The position numbers and the translations under genes are program-made. A stretch of 64,000 nt of DNA from Bacteroides sp. (GTDB lineage: Bacteria > Bacteroidota > Bacteroidia > Bacteroidales > Bacteroidaceae). The notes beneath the pieces were generated by a model. It was not told where the DNA came from. It ran no database searches and worked only from the letters and a program-made list of their open reading frames with translations. The stretch lies in assembly GCA_015060765.1 (NCBI GenBank), contig SUXW01000003.1, forward strand, positions 124,001 through 188,000, given 5' to 3'. Positions 37,646 through 53,477 of the stretch are shown here, in pieces (the stretch's first letter is position 1; every line of letters begins with the position of its first letter).

Positions 37646-37927
37646 ATGGTTTATGTCATAACATATAATATTAATACTTCTGTTAGAGATTACTCGCCTT
37701 TTTATGAGGCAATAAAAAGGTGCTGTATGAGTTATTATCATGCTCAGGAATCTACTTGGTTCATTGCTTGTAATGAGCGACAAAATGTTAAGATGATGAC
37801 TGATTTTCTCTTGAAAACACTTTATCCGGGCGATACTATATTTATTGCAGAATTGACAAGTGCGACAATGGTTGACGGGTGGATTACAAAGGATTTCTGG
37901 AACTGGTATAGAGATAACATACGATGA
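37646..37927 (+). CDS. Small Cas2-fold/SinR-like protein (93 aa)
   Basis: MVYVITYNINTSVRDYSPFYEAIKRCCMSYYHAQESTWFIACNERQN..LYPGDTIFIAELTS: matches the remembered pattern of SinR/Cas2-like small proteins. Confidence 0.6.
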   Translation: MVYVITYNINTSVRDYSPFYEAIKRCCMSYYHAQESTWFIACNERQNVKMMTDFLLKTLYPGDTIFIAELTSATMVDGWITKDFWNWYRDNIR

Positions 37928-39054
37928 TTACAAATTTAAACATACGAAATTTTAAAGCATTTAAGGATACCGGTAATATTCGATTGGGAGCATTGAATGT
38001 GCTAACGGGTATCAATGGTCGTGGTAAATCAACCTTGATGCAGTCGTTATTGTTAATGTCCCAGTCTATAAGGGAATCTGAGAATCATTCTCCTTTGCAT
38101 TTGTTTTCAAATGGGGAATGGGTGAAATTAGGACCGTTTAGGGATCTTATACATCAATATTCTGACTTGGGGGACTCTGTAATCTTTAGTCTTGTGACTG
38201 ATGATGCTAAGGATAATGAGTATGTTCTGACATACCAGCCTGTTAGCGATGATTCATTTACAGCGAAACTTCGTAGTATGGTTGTAAATGGCAAGGAGAC
38301 ATTCTCGGAAGCGGGTGGTTATAGTGCTGAAAGTACTGAACAGATGCTTGTACCACCGGTGTTTTCAGGATATACATCTTTGCTCCGTTTGCAGAATATA
38401 TATTATATTGCGGCTGATAGAAAGGGGGCTCCCGATGAAGAGGAACTTCTGTCGGTTAATCACAATCTTCATCTGGATTGTCATGGAAATAATGTCCTGA
38501 ATGTCTTATTTCAGCAAGGTGCTGAGCTTCAGGGTAAAGTAGAGAAATGCTTAAGTGATATTTTCGAAGGGGCTACTTTTAGGATTTTGGCAGATGAAAG
38601 AGCAGTACACCTTTATATGGATTCTATGAATGGTGGTAAATTGTTCAGACCAATCAATGTGGGATATGGATATAGTTATATTCTCGCTTTGTTGGTGGCT
38701 GGACTGTTGGCCAAAAAAGGAGAAATTATCATGGTGGAGAATCCGGAGGCTCATCTTCATCCAAGTGCACAGTCTGCATTGATGAAATTCTTGTGCGAGG
38801 AGGTGATTGCTAAGGGGGGGCAGGTCTTTGTGGAGACTCATAGTGATCATATTGTCAATGCTTCTCTTTTGGCTGTTCGGAAAGGTGTCTTGACCAATGA
38901 ACAAATGAATGTTCTGTTTTTCAATCGCAGTGACAGTTCTGCTGATGTTATTGTCAGCAATCTGGAGGTGACTTCGAAAGGTAGAGTGAAAAATCCTCCA
39001 AGGAAGTTTTGTGATCAGTATGCGATGGATCTACGTACTTTGATGGGATTGTAG
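37924..39054 (+). CDS. AAA ATPase, DUF3696-type
   Basis: NLNIRNFKAFKDTGNIRLGALNVLTGINGRGKSTLMQSLLLMSQS; IIMVENPEAHLHPSAQSALMKFL; VETHSDHIVNA. Confidence 0.88.
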   Translation: MITNLNIRNFKAFKDTGNIRLGALNVLTGINGRGKSTLMQSLLLMSQSIRESENHSPLHLFSNGEWVKLGPFRDLIHQYSDLGDSVIFSLVTDDAKDNEYVLTYQPVSDDSFTAKLRSMVVNGKETFSEAGGYSAESTEQMLVPPVFSGYTSLLRLQNIYYIAADRKGAPDEEELLSVNHNLHLDCHGNNVLNVLFQQGAELQGKVEKCLSDIFEGATFRILADERAVHLYMDSMNGGKLFRPINVGYGYSYILALLVAGLLAKKGEIIMVENPEAHLHPSAQSALMKFLCEEVIAKGGQVFVETHSDHIVNASLLAVRKGVLTNEQMNVLFFNRSDSSADVIVSNLEVTSKGRVKNPPRKFCDQYAMDLRTLMGL

Positions 39055-39078
39055 GGTTTGTTGTGTGGAGAGTGGATT

Positions 39079-39954
39079 ATGAGTACGGCGTTATTTTTAC
39101 TTTTAAAGGAGTATACGGATGCTGATCAGCTGCCGTCAGTGCCATATGTCAATGGGGGAGATTGTTTGGATGAGTCAGAATGGTTGAAATATTACAAGCA
39201 GCTGTTTGATACTATTGATTTCTTTCGATACGAGAAATGTGATAGGTATTATGATGTAAGAAACTTTCTTCAAGCTAATTATCCCTTTGATTTATTGAAG
39301 GACTATTATGAAGATCGAGAAGAATTTCCTGGAGACTCTGAAAGTATCATAGCTCAAATAGTTTCCAATGGATTTATTGACTGGAGAGACGAGAGTGAAG
39401 AAGATGGCCAACGGTATTGTTTCTATGATATGGATGTCACAGAGGATGTGCTTGGAGAAATCGCACGCAATATTCGTTCTGAAAAAGCTGTTGTTCTGTT
39501 GAATATGGATGCAATCAGCCATCCTTCTCCAATCAGGTTGTCTTATGCAAATGGTAATTGCTCGGTGGAGATTGAGCATGTAGGTAGTATAAAAGGATTG
39601 CATGGTTGGTTCAGCAAGAACAGGAGACCGCAACGTGTCTTTGTTTATTCTTCCAAGCATGGTGATTTCTATCATCCGTCTGAAATGATATCTGGTACGT
39701 GGCGAAAAGCTGCTCAGTTGGAATGTCTGCAAGAGGAAGCACAGTCGCTTCTTGATTATGCTGTCGGGGATGATATCGGCTCTTCTTTGTGGTATTATGA
39801 TGCCAAGTACAAGAAACATATCTATTTTGAGAATCAGAATGAAATGCGTTTGGCCTTCCACGGCTATCATTTGATTGAAAATGAGGAAAATTTTAATAAC
39901 ATATCCATTGATAAGTTGGCGGCTGTCATGGGGGAGAAATATGACAGTAAATAA
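39079..39954 (+). CDS. Unknown protein of the Cas2-like/ATPase operon (291 aa)
   Basis: Long ORF 24 nt downstream of the ATPase stop, same strand; no family recognised. Confidence 0.7.
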   Translation: MSTALFLLLKEYTDADQLPSVPYVNGGDCLDESEWLKYYKQLFDTIDFFRYEKCDRYYDVRNFLQANYPFDLLKDYYEDREEFPGDSESIIAQIVSNGFIDWRDESEEDGQRYCFYDMDVTEDVLGEIARNIRSEKAVVLLNMDAISHPSPIRLSYANGNCSVEIEHVGSIKGLHGWFSKNRRPQRVFVYSSKHGDFYHPSEMISGTWRKAAQLECLQEEAQSLLDYAVGDDIGSSLWYYDAKYKKHIYFENQNEMRLAFHGYHLIENEENFNNISIDKLAAVMGEKYDSK

Positions 39955-39963
39955 GATTTTATT

Positions 39964-40011
39964 ATGAAGATACTGATTACGGGAGTCCACGGTTTTGTGG
40001 GTTTGGGGTGA
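39964..40011 (+). pseudogene. N-terminal shred of an NAD-dependent sugar epimerase
   Basis: MKILITGVHGFVGLG*: start of a Rossmann-fold epimerase broken after 15 codons. Confidence 0.45.
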
Positions 40012-40718
40012 AGGAACATACGGTTACTTATCATATTAAGGAGATTTATAAGTGTAATGAATTAGACCAAAATTCAACTGCTCGAAAAATTCGAGTAGTT
40101 CGGAAGGAAGGTAGCAGGAATGTTAATCGTGTGTTAGACTTTTATAATCTTGATATGATACTTTCTGTGGGCTATAGAGTGAATAGTGTAAGGGGTATTA
40201 TGTTTAGACGTTGGTCTTCGGAAGTTTTGAAACAATTTATGCTCCGGGGATATTCTGTGAATCAGCATCTGGTGGCTGAACAGAAATATGTAAAGGAAGC
40301 GTTTGATACGAATTGGGTGGTGCCCATGGGACCGAATGTAAATGCATTTGAACAGAAAAAGGCTTCTCTCAACATCAATCCTCATCTGGAACAAGATTTA
40401 AACGAATTAACTGCGGTTAAAGAAGATTTGAATAGTGTAAGTTCTGTTATAACATCTTTGCGAATACGTCGCGATGTGATTTAAGAATCCATCAATGACT
40501 TCAACCAACAGCGTTTTGACGTAGATATGGCTCAATTACAGCTTGTTTATAAACAGGCAGCTGCGTTGATGCCAACAGTACAGCATACATTTGAAGAGAT
40601 GGTAAGTTACCATAATAAGATGTTAGCCAACTTGCGATTGCATCATTTAGGTATTTCTTCGGATGCTTACGCAACAGTACTTGGTTTTAAGGTAAAATTT
40701 GCTGGGGAAGAAGTTTAA
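40012..40718 (+). pseudogene. Chimeric remnant: RhuM-like fragment followed by a DUF2326-like fragment with in-frame stop
   Basis: HTVTYHIKEIYKCNELDQNSTARKIRVV..VNRVLDFYNLDMILSVGYRVNSVRGIMFRRWSSEVLKQFMLRGYSVN (RhuM-like); after 40482-40484 TAA the same frame continues ESINDFNQQRFDVDMAQLQLVYKQAAALMPTVQHTFEEMVSYHNKM (DUF2326-like). Confidence 0.6.
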
Positions 40719-40774: not shown

Positions 40775-40806
40775 TTTGTATATTTGGAACAAAGCCGTTA
40801 TTTTTG
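40775..40806 (+). promoter_or_regulatory. Promoter TTTG-N20-TATTTTTG upstream of the S24-like gene
   Basis: Exact match to Bacteroidetes -33/-7 consensus and spacing. Confidence 0.7.
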
Positions 40807-40844
40807 TGTTTCCAAAAGAAAAAGAGAGATAGAAAGAAGCTAAG

Positions 40845-41492
40845 ATGTATTCATTTAAGGAAAGTGATATACATACATTGAAGTATGTAAAGGCGGGAAA
40901 GGCTGGTAAGGTCTTGTCGTTAACTCAAGAGGTTGCAAATGATTTTTTGAGTCAGGAATCATTACAATCTTGTAAAGCTTATTTTGAAGGTGAACATTTG
41001 GAAAAGGATACTTTCATGGTGATAGGTGAATCTATGGCACAACACGGGATTCATACGGGAGACTTATTGTTCGTCAGTTTGTGTGGTGATGCCGAAACTT
41101 TGAAATATGGAGCCTATATCGTATTAAAGGTAGATGAAAATCGCTTAATGAAACATCTTTTTAAGACCAATGTGGATTTAGGATATAAATTAAGGAAGTT
41201 TCTGATGGTTGTTGATTTGAGAAAGAATATGGATGAACTTTTTACTGAAGTGAAAGAGGTGGATGAAGTAGCTCGCTACTCGGCAACAGCAAAAAAAACT
41301 TTCAAAGAGAAGTTTGAAGATGCCGTTAAGGATTTGGGAAGGGTTGATGACATCTTACTTTCTGTAACATATACAGAAAAAGGGCGAGATTTTTCTTTCC
41401 ATGCGGTGAAAGACTTGTATGCAAAGGTCGATATGGTTTATGCCAAAAAAGATAGTGTATATAAGTTGAAGAAAAATCTGATAGCGGACTAA
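40845..41492 (+). CDS. S24/LexA-like peptidase-domain protein without obvious HTH
   Basis: FMVIGESMAQHGIHTGDLLFVSLCGDAETLKYGAYIVLKVDENRLMKHLFK: Ser in GxSMxxxGIxxGD and downstream Lys as in S24 proteases. Confidence 0.7.
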   Translation: MYSFKESDIHTLKYVKAGKAGKVLSLTQEVANDFLSQESLQSCKAYFEGEHLEKDTFMVIGESMAQHGIHTGDLLFVSLCGDAETLKYGAYIVLKVDENRLMKHLFKTNVDLGYKLRKFLMVVDLRKNMDELFTEVKEVDEVARYSATAKKTFKEKFEDAVKDLGRVDDILLSVTYTEKGRDFSFHAVKDLYAKVDMVYAKKDSVYKLKKNLIAD

Positions 41493-42298
41493 TGAATTTT
41501 GCAGACTATTTGGCATTCATTCAAGTGTCGGTTGCTTTTAATTTTGCTTCGGCATATTGGAAGAAGGAGAATGATGATGATGCAATTGAAAAATTATTCA
41601 GGGTATTTTACGATAATAAAAAGTTGGAACAAGGCCTGGAGAAAAACCAGCGTTTGATGAGTTCTATAGATCAACATCGCCCTGTAATAACCGACACATT
41701 TCATGAAGAGATTGAAATAGATAAAAAAGCTCTTTCTCTATTTTATGAAATGAAAGATAAATGGACGAAAGCTACTCAAAATATTCTCAATATTTATATC
41801 AGGGTAATGTCGACAGACCGGTCGGTTTTTTTTAATAATGTCTGTATAGTTATGGCACTATACGGACTTTTTCAATTATGGATACTTCCCGATATATGTG
41901 AAAAAGGATATGAGGTCTTTAGGAATGCATATATTTATGCTACAGAAATCTTGTTGGGGATATTGGGAGTGCTGTTTTTGAGTGAGATTGTTTTCAAATT
42001 TAAAGGACTTGTTATAAAAATACCTCATTTGTGTTCCATTGTGTTGTTTTTGTTTCTTGCTATTGGGACATGGCTATTCTCTTATTTATATAGCATAGAT
42101 TCCATAAAACCTTATTATGCAGATTTTAATGAGGATAAATTTATTTATTACTCAATTTTTATACCTTATTTTTCTTATATCGTTTATTTCCTTATAACAG
42201 TAATGTTTGTGGTATGGGATTGGATCCTGATGTGTTTCGTAGTCCCTTATTATGAATGGAGAAGAAGGAAAGCTATGGAAGAATATGAGAAGAAATAA
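41492..42298 (+). CDS. Polytopic membrane protein (about 4 TM), translationally coupled to S24-like gene
   Basis: TAATG overlap; hydrophobic blocks FFNNVCIVMALYGLFQLWIL, ATEILLGILGVLFLSEIV, LCSIVLFLFLAIGTWLFSYLY, YFSYIVYFLITVMFVVWDWILMCFVV. Confidence 0.75.
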   Translation: MNFADYLAFIQVSVAFNFASAYWKKENDDDAIEKLFRVFYDNKKLEQGLEKNQRLMSSIDQHRPVITDTFHEEIEIDKKALSLFYEMKDKWTKATQNILNIYIRVMSTDRSVFFNNVCIVMALYGLFQLWILPDICEKGYEVFRNAYIYATEILLGILGVLFLSEIVFKFKGLVIKIPHLCSIVLFLFLAIGTWLFSYLYSIDSIKPYYADFNEDKFIYYSIFIPYFSYIVYFLITVMFVVWDWILMCFVVPYYEWRRRKAMEEYEKK

Positions 42299-52798: not shown

Positions 52799-53095
52799 AT
52801 GAAATCAACATCCGAGTATCTATTATTATTGAAGCAGTTCAAGGAAACTAAGGGTAAGTTCTATGGTATTCAAAAGATTGGACTGTTTGGTTCTGTGGCT
52901 CGTGGAGAACATAAGGAAGGAAGTGATGTGGATGTTTGTTTTGAAGGGGATGCTATAGGACTTTTTAGAATGGCTCGATTAAAAGGAGAACTTGAAATGT
53001 TGTTTGGGACTACCGTTGATTTATTGCGTATGCGTAAACAATTGGATGGCTCAATGCTGAAAGAATCTGTAATGAGAGATATCGTTTATGCTTGA
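52799..53095 (+). CDS. mntA: MNT-type nucleotidyltransferase (MntA-like antitoxin)
   Basis: LFGSVARGEHKEGSDVDVCFEGD. Confidence 0.82.
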   Translation: MKSTSEYLLLLKQFKETKGKFYGIQKIGLFGSVARGEHKEGSDVDVCFEGDAIGLFRMARLKGELEMLFGTTVDLLRMRKQLDGSMLKESVMRDIVYA

Positions 53096-53477
53096 TTGGA
53101 ATAAGAAAGAAATACTCGAACTCTTGGATATGGTTCTGGACTCTATCGAAGTGATACAGGAACGAACTCGTCATATTCGAATAGGGGACGATTTTTTATT
53201 GTCTCCGGATAATATGTTTATATTGGATGGAGTTTGTATGAGACTTATCTTTATTGGAGAAAGTATCAAAAATATAGATAAAAAAACGGAGGGTACGTTA
53301 TTTTGTAATTATCCTTCAGTTCCTTGGAAAGATGTAATGAAACAACGAGATTTAATAGCTCATCATTATTTTCGGGTTGATGCAGACTCTATTTGTGTAA
53401 CTATTAAAGAAGACTTCCCTTTTTTGTATCAAACGTTGTTGCAGATAAAACAGGATTTACAAAACAGATTATACTGA
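53088..53477 (+). CDS. hepT: HepT-like (DUF86) RNase toxin
   Basis: RDLIAHHYF = Rx4HxY motif; overlaps MntA-like gene by 8 bp. Confidence 0.82.
   Translation: MLDWNKKEILELLDMVLDSIEVIQERTRHIRIGDDFLLSPDNMFILDGVCMRLIFIGESIKNIDKKTEGTLFCNYPSVPWKDVMKQRDLIAHHYFRVDADSICVTIKEDFPFLYQTLLQIKQDLQNRLY

Follow-up and report, generated by a model that had tools for sequence, protein, structure and literature searches.

A LexA/UmuD-like protein of the S24 superfamily that carries no DNA-binding domain is coupled, in a two-gene unit found across Bacteroidales, to a membrane protein. The pair is real, conserved and apparently undescribed, and it would put an ordinary superfamily to a new use. The argument is drawn from its promoter, the coupling of its genes, the conservation of their pairing and of the residues for self-cleavage, and the LexA-like fold predicted for a relative. 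The reading that fits best is that the S24 protein, by cleaving itself, would gate a membrane effector, a mechanism that we put forward tentatively and to which we give, taken whole, somewhat less than an even chance.

Genes and promoter of the pair

The window (the whole stretch of 64,000 nucleotides that was analysed) covers positions 124001-188000 of contig 1 in a 2.9-Mb assembly, which is incomplete (84%). The unit spans positions 40775-42298 of the forward strand, in AT-rich surroundings downstream of a run of polysaccharide genes, and consists of a promoter followed by the S24 gene and then by the membrane-protein gene (Table 1). The exact promoter reported by the initial annotation, TTTG-N20-TATTTTTG, is indeed present and occurs as a single copy in the window vs 0.04 expected by chance; the relaxed form, TTTG-N19-21-TAnnTTTG, has six copies vs 1.36 expected. 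Among the modules examined, 10/14 have TAnnTTTG at most 60 bp upstream of their first gene (shuffled sequences: mean 0.4, maximum 3), and the modules thus often bring their own promoter. Of the two reported SOS motifs, CTAA-N5-TTAG and GGA-N5-TCC, the scan covered the first, which was absent from the 250 bp preceding the modules, and an Rfam scan of the window returned tRNAs only. The two genes overlap, as had been noticed, by one base: the TAA stop codon of the S24 gene (41490-41492) shares position 41492 with the ATG of the membrane-protein gene.

Table 1. Positions in the window of the promoter, the two genes and their predicted functional elements.
Feature	Position	Strand	Basis
Bacteroides-type promoter TTTG-N20-TATTTTTG (-33/-7)	40775..40806	+	exact motif match
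S24/LexA-UmuD-like protein, 215 aa, without DNA-binding domain	40845..41492	+	ORF, Pfam, family alignment
Ala17-Gly18, first candidate scissile dipeptide	40893..40898	+	family alignment
Ala20-Gly21 in KAGKV, preferred candidate scissile dipeptide	40902..40907	+	alignment with A-type relatives, spacing
Ser63 (GESM), predicted nucleophile	41031..41033	+	Ser in 16/17, aligned with LexA Ser
Lys115 (GYKLRKF), predicted general base	41187..41189	+	invariant, 17/17
Membrane protein, 268 aa, start overlapping S24 stop	41492..42298	+	ORF, TM prediction; N-terminal 97 aa related to L002 partner
Hydrophobic segment 1, weaker, motif LAFIQVSVAFNF	41498..41554	+	hydrophobicity, relatives' alignment
TM segment 2	41840..41896	+	TM prediction
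TM segment 3	41939..41995	+	TM prediction
TM segment 4	42008..42064	+	TM prediction
TM segment 5	42188..42244	+	TM prediction

By itself, the S24 protein falls narrowly below the Pfam threshold for Peptidase_S24 (E=1.4e-4, 22.0 bits; cut-off 23.3), and direct scans with it of genome contigs, viral contigs, plasmids and phages found no match. It contains no helix-turn-helix (HTH), because 16-19 residues at most precede the Ala-Gly motif, and the Pfam and NCBIfam searches gave it no match to an HTH family. In its relatives the N-terminus before this motif is a transmembrane (TM) segment or a short tail, and an HTH was seen in no member; the view of the protein as a stand-alone S24 domain is thereby borne out. 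The membrane protein had been described as having about four TM segments, a number to be corrected to nearer five, i.e. four strong segments and a weaker first one (residues 3-21) that aligns with a clear TM segment in relatives. A search with the membrane protein only gave just chance OmpA-like matches (L008, L009). No family in Pfam, NCBIfam, PADLOC or PHROG covers the S24/membrane pair, no PADLOC-DB component matched either gene or the A- and B-type relatives tested (see below), and no published description of the pair was found in the open-access literature, in agreement with the earlier remark that no named system has this composition.

Self-cleavage residues and predicted fold of the S24 family

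The determinants of S24 self-cleavage are an Ala-Gly bond, a Ser and a Lys (PMC8565304), and all three are found in fully or nearly invariant columns of the family. Across 17 S24 proteins with a median pairwise identity of 22.5%, the Ala-Gly dipeptide and the Lys are present in 17/17 and the Ser in 16/17, with a Cys once (L034). Eight columns of this alignment are invariant (A17, G18, V59, G61, I69, K115, R117 and H186 in window numbering). A family profile matched LexA sequences with probabilities of 96.5-96.7%, the Ala-Gly falling on VAAG and the Ser on the Ser. These LexA alignments stop before K115 or pair the window's other lysines, and the equivalence of K115 to LexA K156 therefore rests on family conservation. 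The catalytic Lys had at first been sought in LMKHLFK, an assignment that we reject: K103 and K107 are not conserved and K115 is invariant. Both Ala-Gly dipeptides noted near the N-terminus do exist, A17-G18 and A20-G21, and the scissile column differs by alignment, the 17-member alignment placing it at A17-G18 and the A-type alignment at A20-G21. We favour A20-G21 as the candidate scissile bond because its KAGKV motif matches the A-type relatives and because its spacing fits better: A20-G21 lies 43 residues from the Ser and A17 lies 46, vs 40-43 in most relatives that have a single clear Ala-Gly. Ser and Lys are about 45 residues apart in A-type proteins of the short kind, compared with 52 in the protein of the window. 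Read from its sequence, the protein would possess the Ser-Lys dyad and the N-terminal Ala-Gly scissile bond of the S24 superfamily (LexA, CI, UmuD). The Cys-bearing relative (L034, 1483-1986; GGCM) is a short protein in which most of the extra C-terminal stretch is gone, a natural minimal version.

An AlphaFold model of the window S24 protein, built from an alignment that included distant A-type rows, was poor (pLDDT 64.8), and a PDB search with it matched no S24 structure. The model of an A-type relative (L048) reached a pLDDT of 86.4; its PDB matches at ranks 1-13 were all LexA, UmuD' came at rank 19 and no signal peptidase was among the 50 matches listed, with a best target TM-score of 0.63 and E-values of about 0.01, none below 0.001. 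An S24 catalytic fold is thus predicted for the family through this relative. In 12/13 A-type proteins, at most one Lys or Arg precedes the TM segment and two to six lie within the next 20 residues, a distribution that predicts a cytosolic S24 domain with the Ala-Gly site soon after the membrane; L030 departs from the rule and its start codon may be misplaced.

Relatives, layouts and genomic settings

Relatives were gathered by searching with the S24 protein alone, family- and order-wide, at first with one sequence and later with profiles, and by an additional scan with three A-type relatives. Sixteen further distinct S24 relatives were found in Bacteroidales (17 with the window), and among the named hosts are Bacteroides mediterraneensis, Phocaeicola coprophilus, uncultured Bacteroides, Porphyromonadaceae, Odoribacter and a Paludibacteraceae MAG. 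The module is sporadic, since in the last family sample 11/400 genomes carry a member. Profile scans of viral contigs gave no match, nor did tblastn searches of phages and plasmids with an A-type relative. Phylum-sample matches outside Bacteroidales were weak (E 5e-7 to 9e-5), and those that were translated are set outside the family because they were mostly HTH-LexA proteins. The alignments A1 and A5 were too divergent for pattern scans. The initial annotation had asked for a co-occurrence analysis and would have been refuted by a pair not conserved together; a membrane-protein gene adjoins the S24 gene in 17/17 members, and, the pair being together in every relative found, this objection falls.

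The modules follow two layouts. In layout A (13 distinct modules), the first gene encodes a 4-TM protein of about 130-210 aa and the second an S24 protein with its own N-terminal TM segment. In layout B (four modules: the window, L002, L003 and L069), the order is reversed: the S24 protein, here soluble, comes first, and after it comes a 5-TM protein (about 250-270 aa) in which a weak or clear first TM segment is followed by a cytosolic stretch and four more segments (L003 excluded, its TM segments not being measurable because the ORF is broken). The S24 proteins of the window, L002 and L003 have no clear TM segment. Both layouts total about five TM segments per module. Among the B-type partners, those of L002 and L069 are homologous over their full length (E about 1e-16 in one direction and 4e-12 in the other), homology of the window partner to that of L002 extends over the N-terminal 97 aa (E about 5e-6) and to that of L069 is marginal (E 0.004), and the L003 partner, whose ORF is frameshifted, is related through a short N-terminal motif only. 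No homology between A-type and B-type partners was detectable with hhalign, which suggests that one kind of switch has been joined to different membrane proteins. Two modules (L003 and L047) are damaged, in both cases in the membrane gene, with the S24 gene left intact. Of the membrane gene in L047 (1872-3998) only the 3' portion is left, as read by eye, the 5' portion being gone, and a PDC-S71 defence candidate adjoins it.

On its 5' side the pair is preceded by a Menshen-like set with NsnB (37924-39054, E 1.6e-82) and NsnC (39058-39954, E 5e-33); a 93-aa ORF that is weakly Cas2-like (E 9e-4) occupies the place of NsnA, the whole set covering 37646-39954. A RhuM remnant with a broken frame (40008-40718) lies immediately upstream of the pair's promoter. 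On the 3' side are a VapE-like gene and a gene that is HU-like by reading of its ORF. Further along (52799-53477), there is an apparent MNT-type nucleotidyltransferase with a HEPN-like partner, the first of the two matching the PADLOC candidate PDC-S09, and a similar-looking MNT/HEPN-like pair adjoins the L002 module in L019. Defence neighbours of the modules, noted as individual cases, are the Menshen-like set of the window, AbiH (L003), HEC-02A (L029), PDC-S71 (L047) and CRISPR-Cas-like genes that L048 follows. Polysaccharide loci house four modules (the window, L002, L003 and L029/L072) and T6SS loci two module kinds (L049 and L030/L066). Elsewhere the surroundings are ordinary: near recA (L055/L012), after groEL (L054), between rpsJ and rplC (L013) and by fimbrillin genes; the T6SS, CRISPR, recA, groEL and ribosomal labels are protein sequences read by eye. 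The ribosomal case (L013 1498-2621; L018 2454-3580) is an A-type module within the operon, between apparent rpsJ (S10) and rplC (L3), in a low-completeness MAG.

L048 and L051/L052 have in common a block of 1.4 kb (identity about 96%) whose left edge lies a little upstream of the promoter; their left flanks differ, and the downstream sequence is common to L051 and L052. L049 and L050, which come from isolates named Bacteroides mediterraneensis and Phocaeicola coprophilus, share an 8.6-kb stretch at 100% identity that contains the module; this may reflect a recent transfer, possibly with a T6SS element, or contamination. The genome that holds the window encodes RecA. A PF00717 search of the 84% assembly listed no more than two proteins besides, one an XRE-type S24 protein and the other small and S24/S26-like, in line with the report that the LexA of Bacteroidetes is non-canonical (PMC8565304).

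A candidate switch at the membrane

Several known systems resemble the pair in part. UmuD, whose processed form is among the PDB matches, is likewise an S24 protein that lacks an HTH and has a short tail preceding the scissile bond, as well as a Ser-Lys dyad; however, UmuD cuts a Cys-Gly bond and works with UmuC, whereas the pair has an Ala-Gly dipeptide, always a membrane partner, additional sequence separating the Lys strand from the C-terminal strands and, in layout A, a TM segment at the N-terminus. No umuC-type polymerase gene was noted in the stretches read, and all 17 modules have a gene for a membrane protein as the neighbour. LexA and the phage CI-type repressors, among them the non-canonical LexA of Bacteroidetes (PMC8565304), have in common with the pair the S24 fold (as modelled in a relative), the Ala-Gly bond and the Ser-Lys dyad; they differ in that LexA is a core regulator, whereas the pair's S24 protein lacks a DNA-binding domain, has a membrane-protein partner and is horizontally scattered. 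SipA and the type I signal peptidases (S26) also have a Ser-Lys domain, sometimes after an N-terminal TM segment, but the S24 domain of the pair is predicted to be cytosolic, has an Ala-Gly site in cis and gave LexA/UmuD' fold matches. A functional parallel is offered by RexAB of phage lambda, in which a cytosolic sensor and a multi-TM membrane effector follow the logic of abortive infection. RexA is not, so far as we know, an S24 protein, and searches of Pfam, PADLOC and PHROGs gave no match to a RexA or RexB family. TisB is a single small peptide controlled by an RNA and by LexA. The pair differs from it in having a dedicated S24 protein in the same operon. A DNA-damage-linked membrane effect of the kind exerted by TisB, an SOS-induced membrane toxin (PMC11997105), is what we propose for the pair.

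In our proposal, the pair would be a compact, horizontally moving sensor-effector module, its S24 protein held at the membrane either through an N-terminal helix of its own (layout A) or through binding to the 5-TM partner (layout B, as in the window). In an unstressed cell the intact S24 protein would hold the membrane protein inactive, or co-assemble with it in an inactive state. Upon a signal, most likely RecA-ssDNA arising from DNA damage or phage infection, the S24 protein would cut its own Ala-Gly bond through Ser63 and Lys115; the cut would detach the S24 domain from the anchor or tail at its N-terminus and turn the membrane protein on, which may then alter the inner membrane in a channel- or pore-like manner, leading to slower growth or aborted infection. 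Another trigger is conceivable, as RecA dependence is not universal in LexA-like proteins, IrvR of S. mutans being a reported exception (PMC7101444). The proposal also draws on the predicted cytosolic orientation in layout A, the exchange of membrane partners, the signs of mobility, the state of the two damaged modules, the defence neighbours and the presence of RecA in the genome; the poor model of the window S24 protein, its Pfam score just under the cut-off, the ordinary surroundings of some modules and the absence of CTAA-N5-TTAG upstream tell against it. What we infer for the pair is that cleavage takes place and what triggers it, which way control runs, what the membrane protein does, and whether the gain is anti-phage or stress survival. 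The protease-gated membrane effector first suggested for this locus is in substance retained as the best fit to a stand-alone S24 domain with intact determinants and a constant partner; its choice of Lys and its TM count were amended. It is a somewhat doubtful further step to see in the modules a new class of immunity or programmed arrest, in which a LexA/UmuD-type autoprotease is wired to exchangeable membrane effectors and cuts itself upon RecA filaments or phage products with no gene regulation.

Other explanations have to be weighed. The S24 protein could be a plain binding antidote to a membrane toxin, the benefit lying in the stability of the pair and self-cleavage being a side feature or a turnover signal. 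Such a toxin-antitoxin-like arrangement would agree with a sporadic, mobile and tightly linked pair whose membrane partners are exchanged, and with the broken membrane gene and intact S24 gene of both damaged modules; but these modules number just two, and the residues for self-cleavage are among the best conserved positions, which counts against a pure antidote because binding alone would not need them. We consider it unlikely. Membrane-anchored stress signalling without killing, in which envelope, capsule or transport would be changed by the membrane protein or by the S24 domain once cleaved, has in IrvR a LexA-like precedent for surface control (PMC7101444) and is suggested by the four modules at polysaccharide loci and the two module kinds at T6SS loci; mobile genes, however, frequently land in capsule and T6SS loci, other modules lie in unrelated places, and this too seems quite unlikely. 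A processing peptidase, of the signal-peptidase or SipA-like type, acting in trans on the membrane partner or on some other protein, is decidedly improbable: while S24 and S26 peptidases are related, layout A sets a Ser-Lys domain after an N-terminal TM segment and one viral 'signal peptidase' figured among the weak fold matches, (i) the charges predict a cytosolic domain in 12/13 A-type proteins, (ii) three of the B-type S24 proteins lack a clear TM segment, (iii) the invariant Ala-Gly lies in cis at the LexA position and (iv) the PDB matches were mostly LexA and UmuD', signal peptidases being absent among the 50 listed. Finally, a transcriptional or polymerase-related LexA/UmuD variant beside an unrelated membrane gene, to which the common superfamily and the UmuD-like short tail of the window protein would point, is very improbable and already disfavoured, since no member seen has an HTH, a membrane gene adjoins 17/17, and umuC or dinB was not noted beside the members examined, yet was seen beside a true UmuD locus (L033).

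We thus return to self-cleavage as a gate on a membrane effector. To our knowledge, self-cleaving S24 proteins are known as DNA-binding repressors or as polymerase helpers. If the proposed mechanism is true, the self-cleavage switch would also serve direct post-translational control at the membrane, and the diverged relatives scattered across Bacteroidales suggest a switch, so far undescribed and triggered by stress or infection, that acts there and not on genes. In dominant gut bacteria, the sensing of DNA damage or infection would then be turned into a membrane response that needs no transcription.
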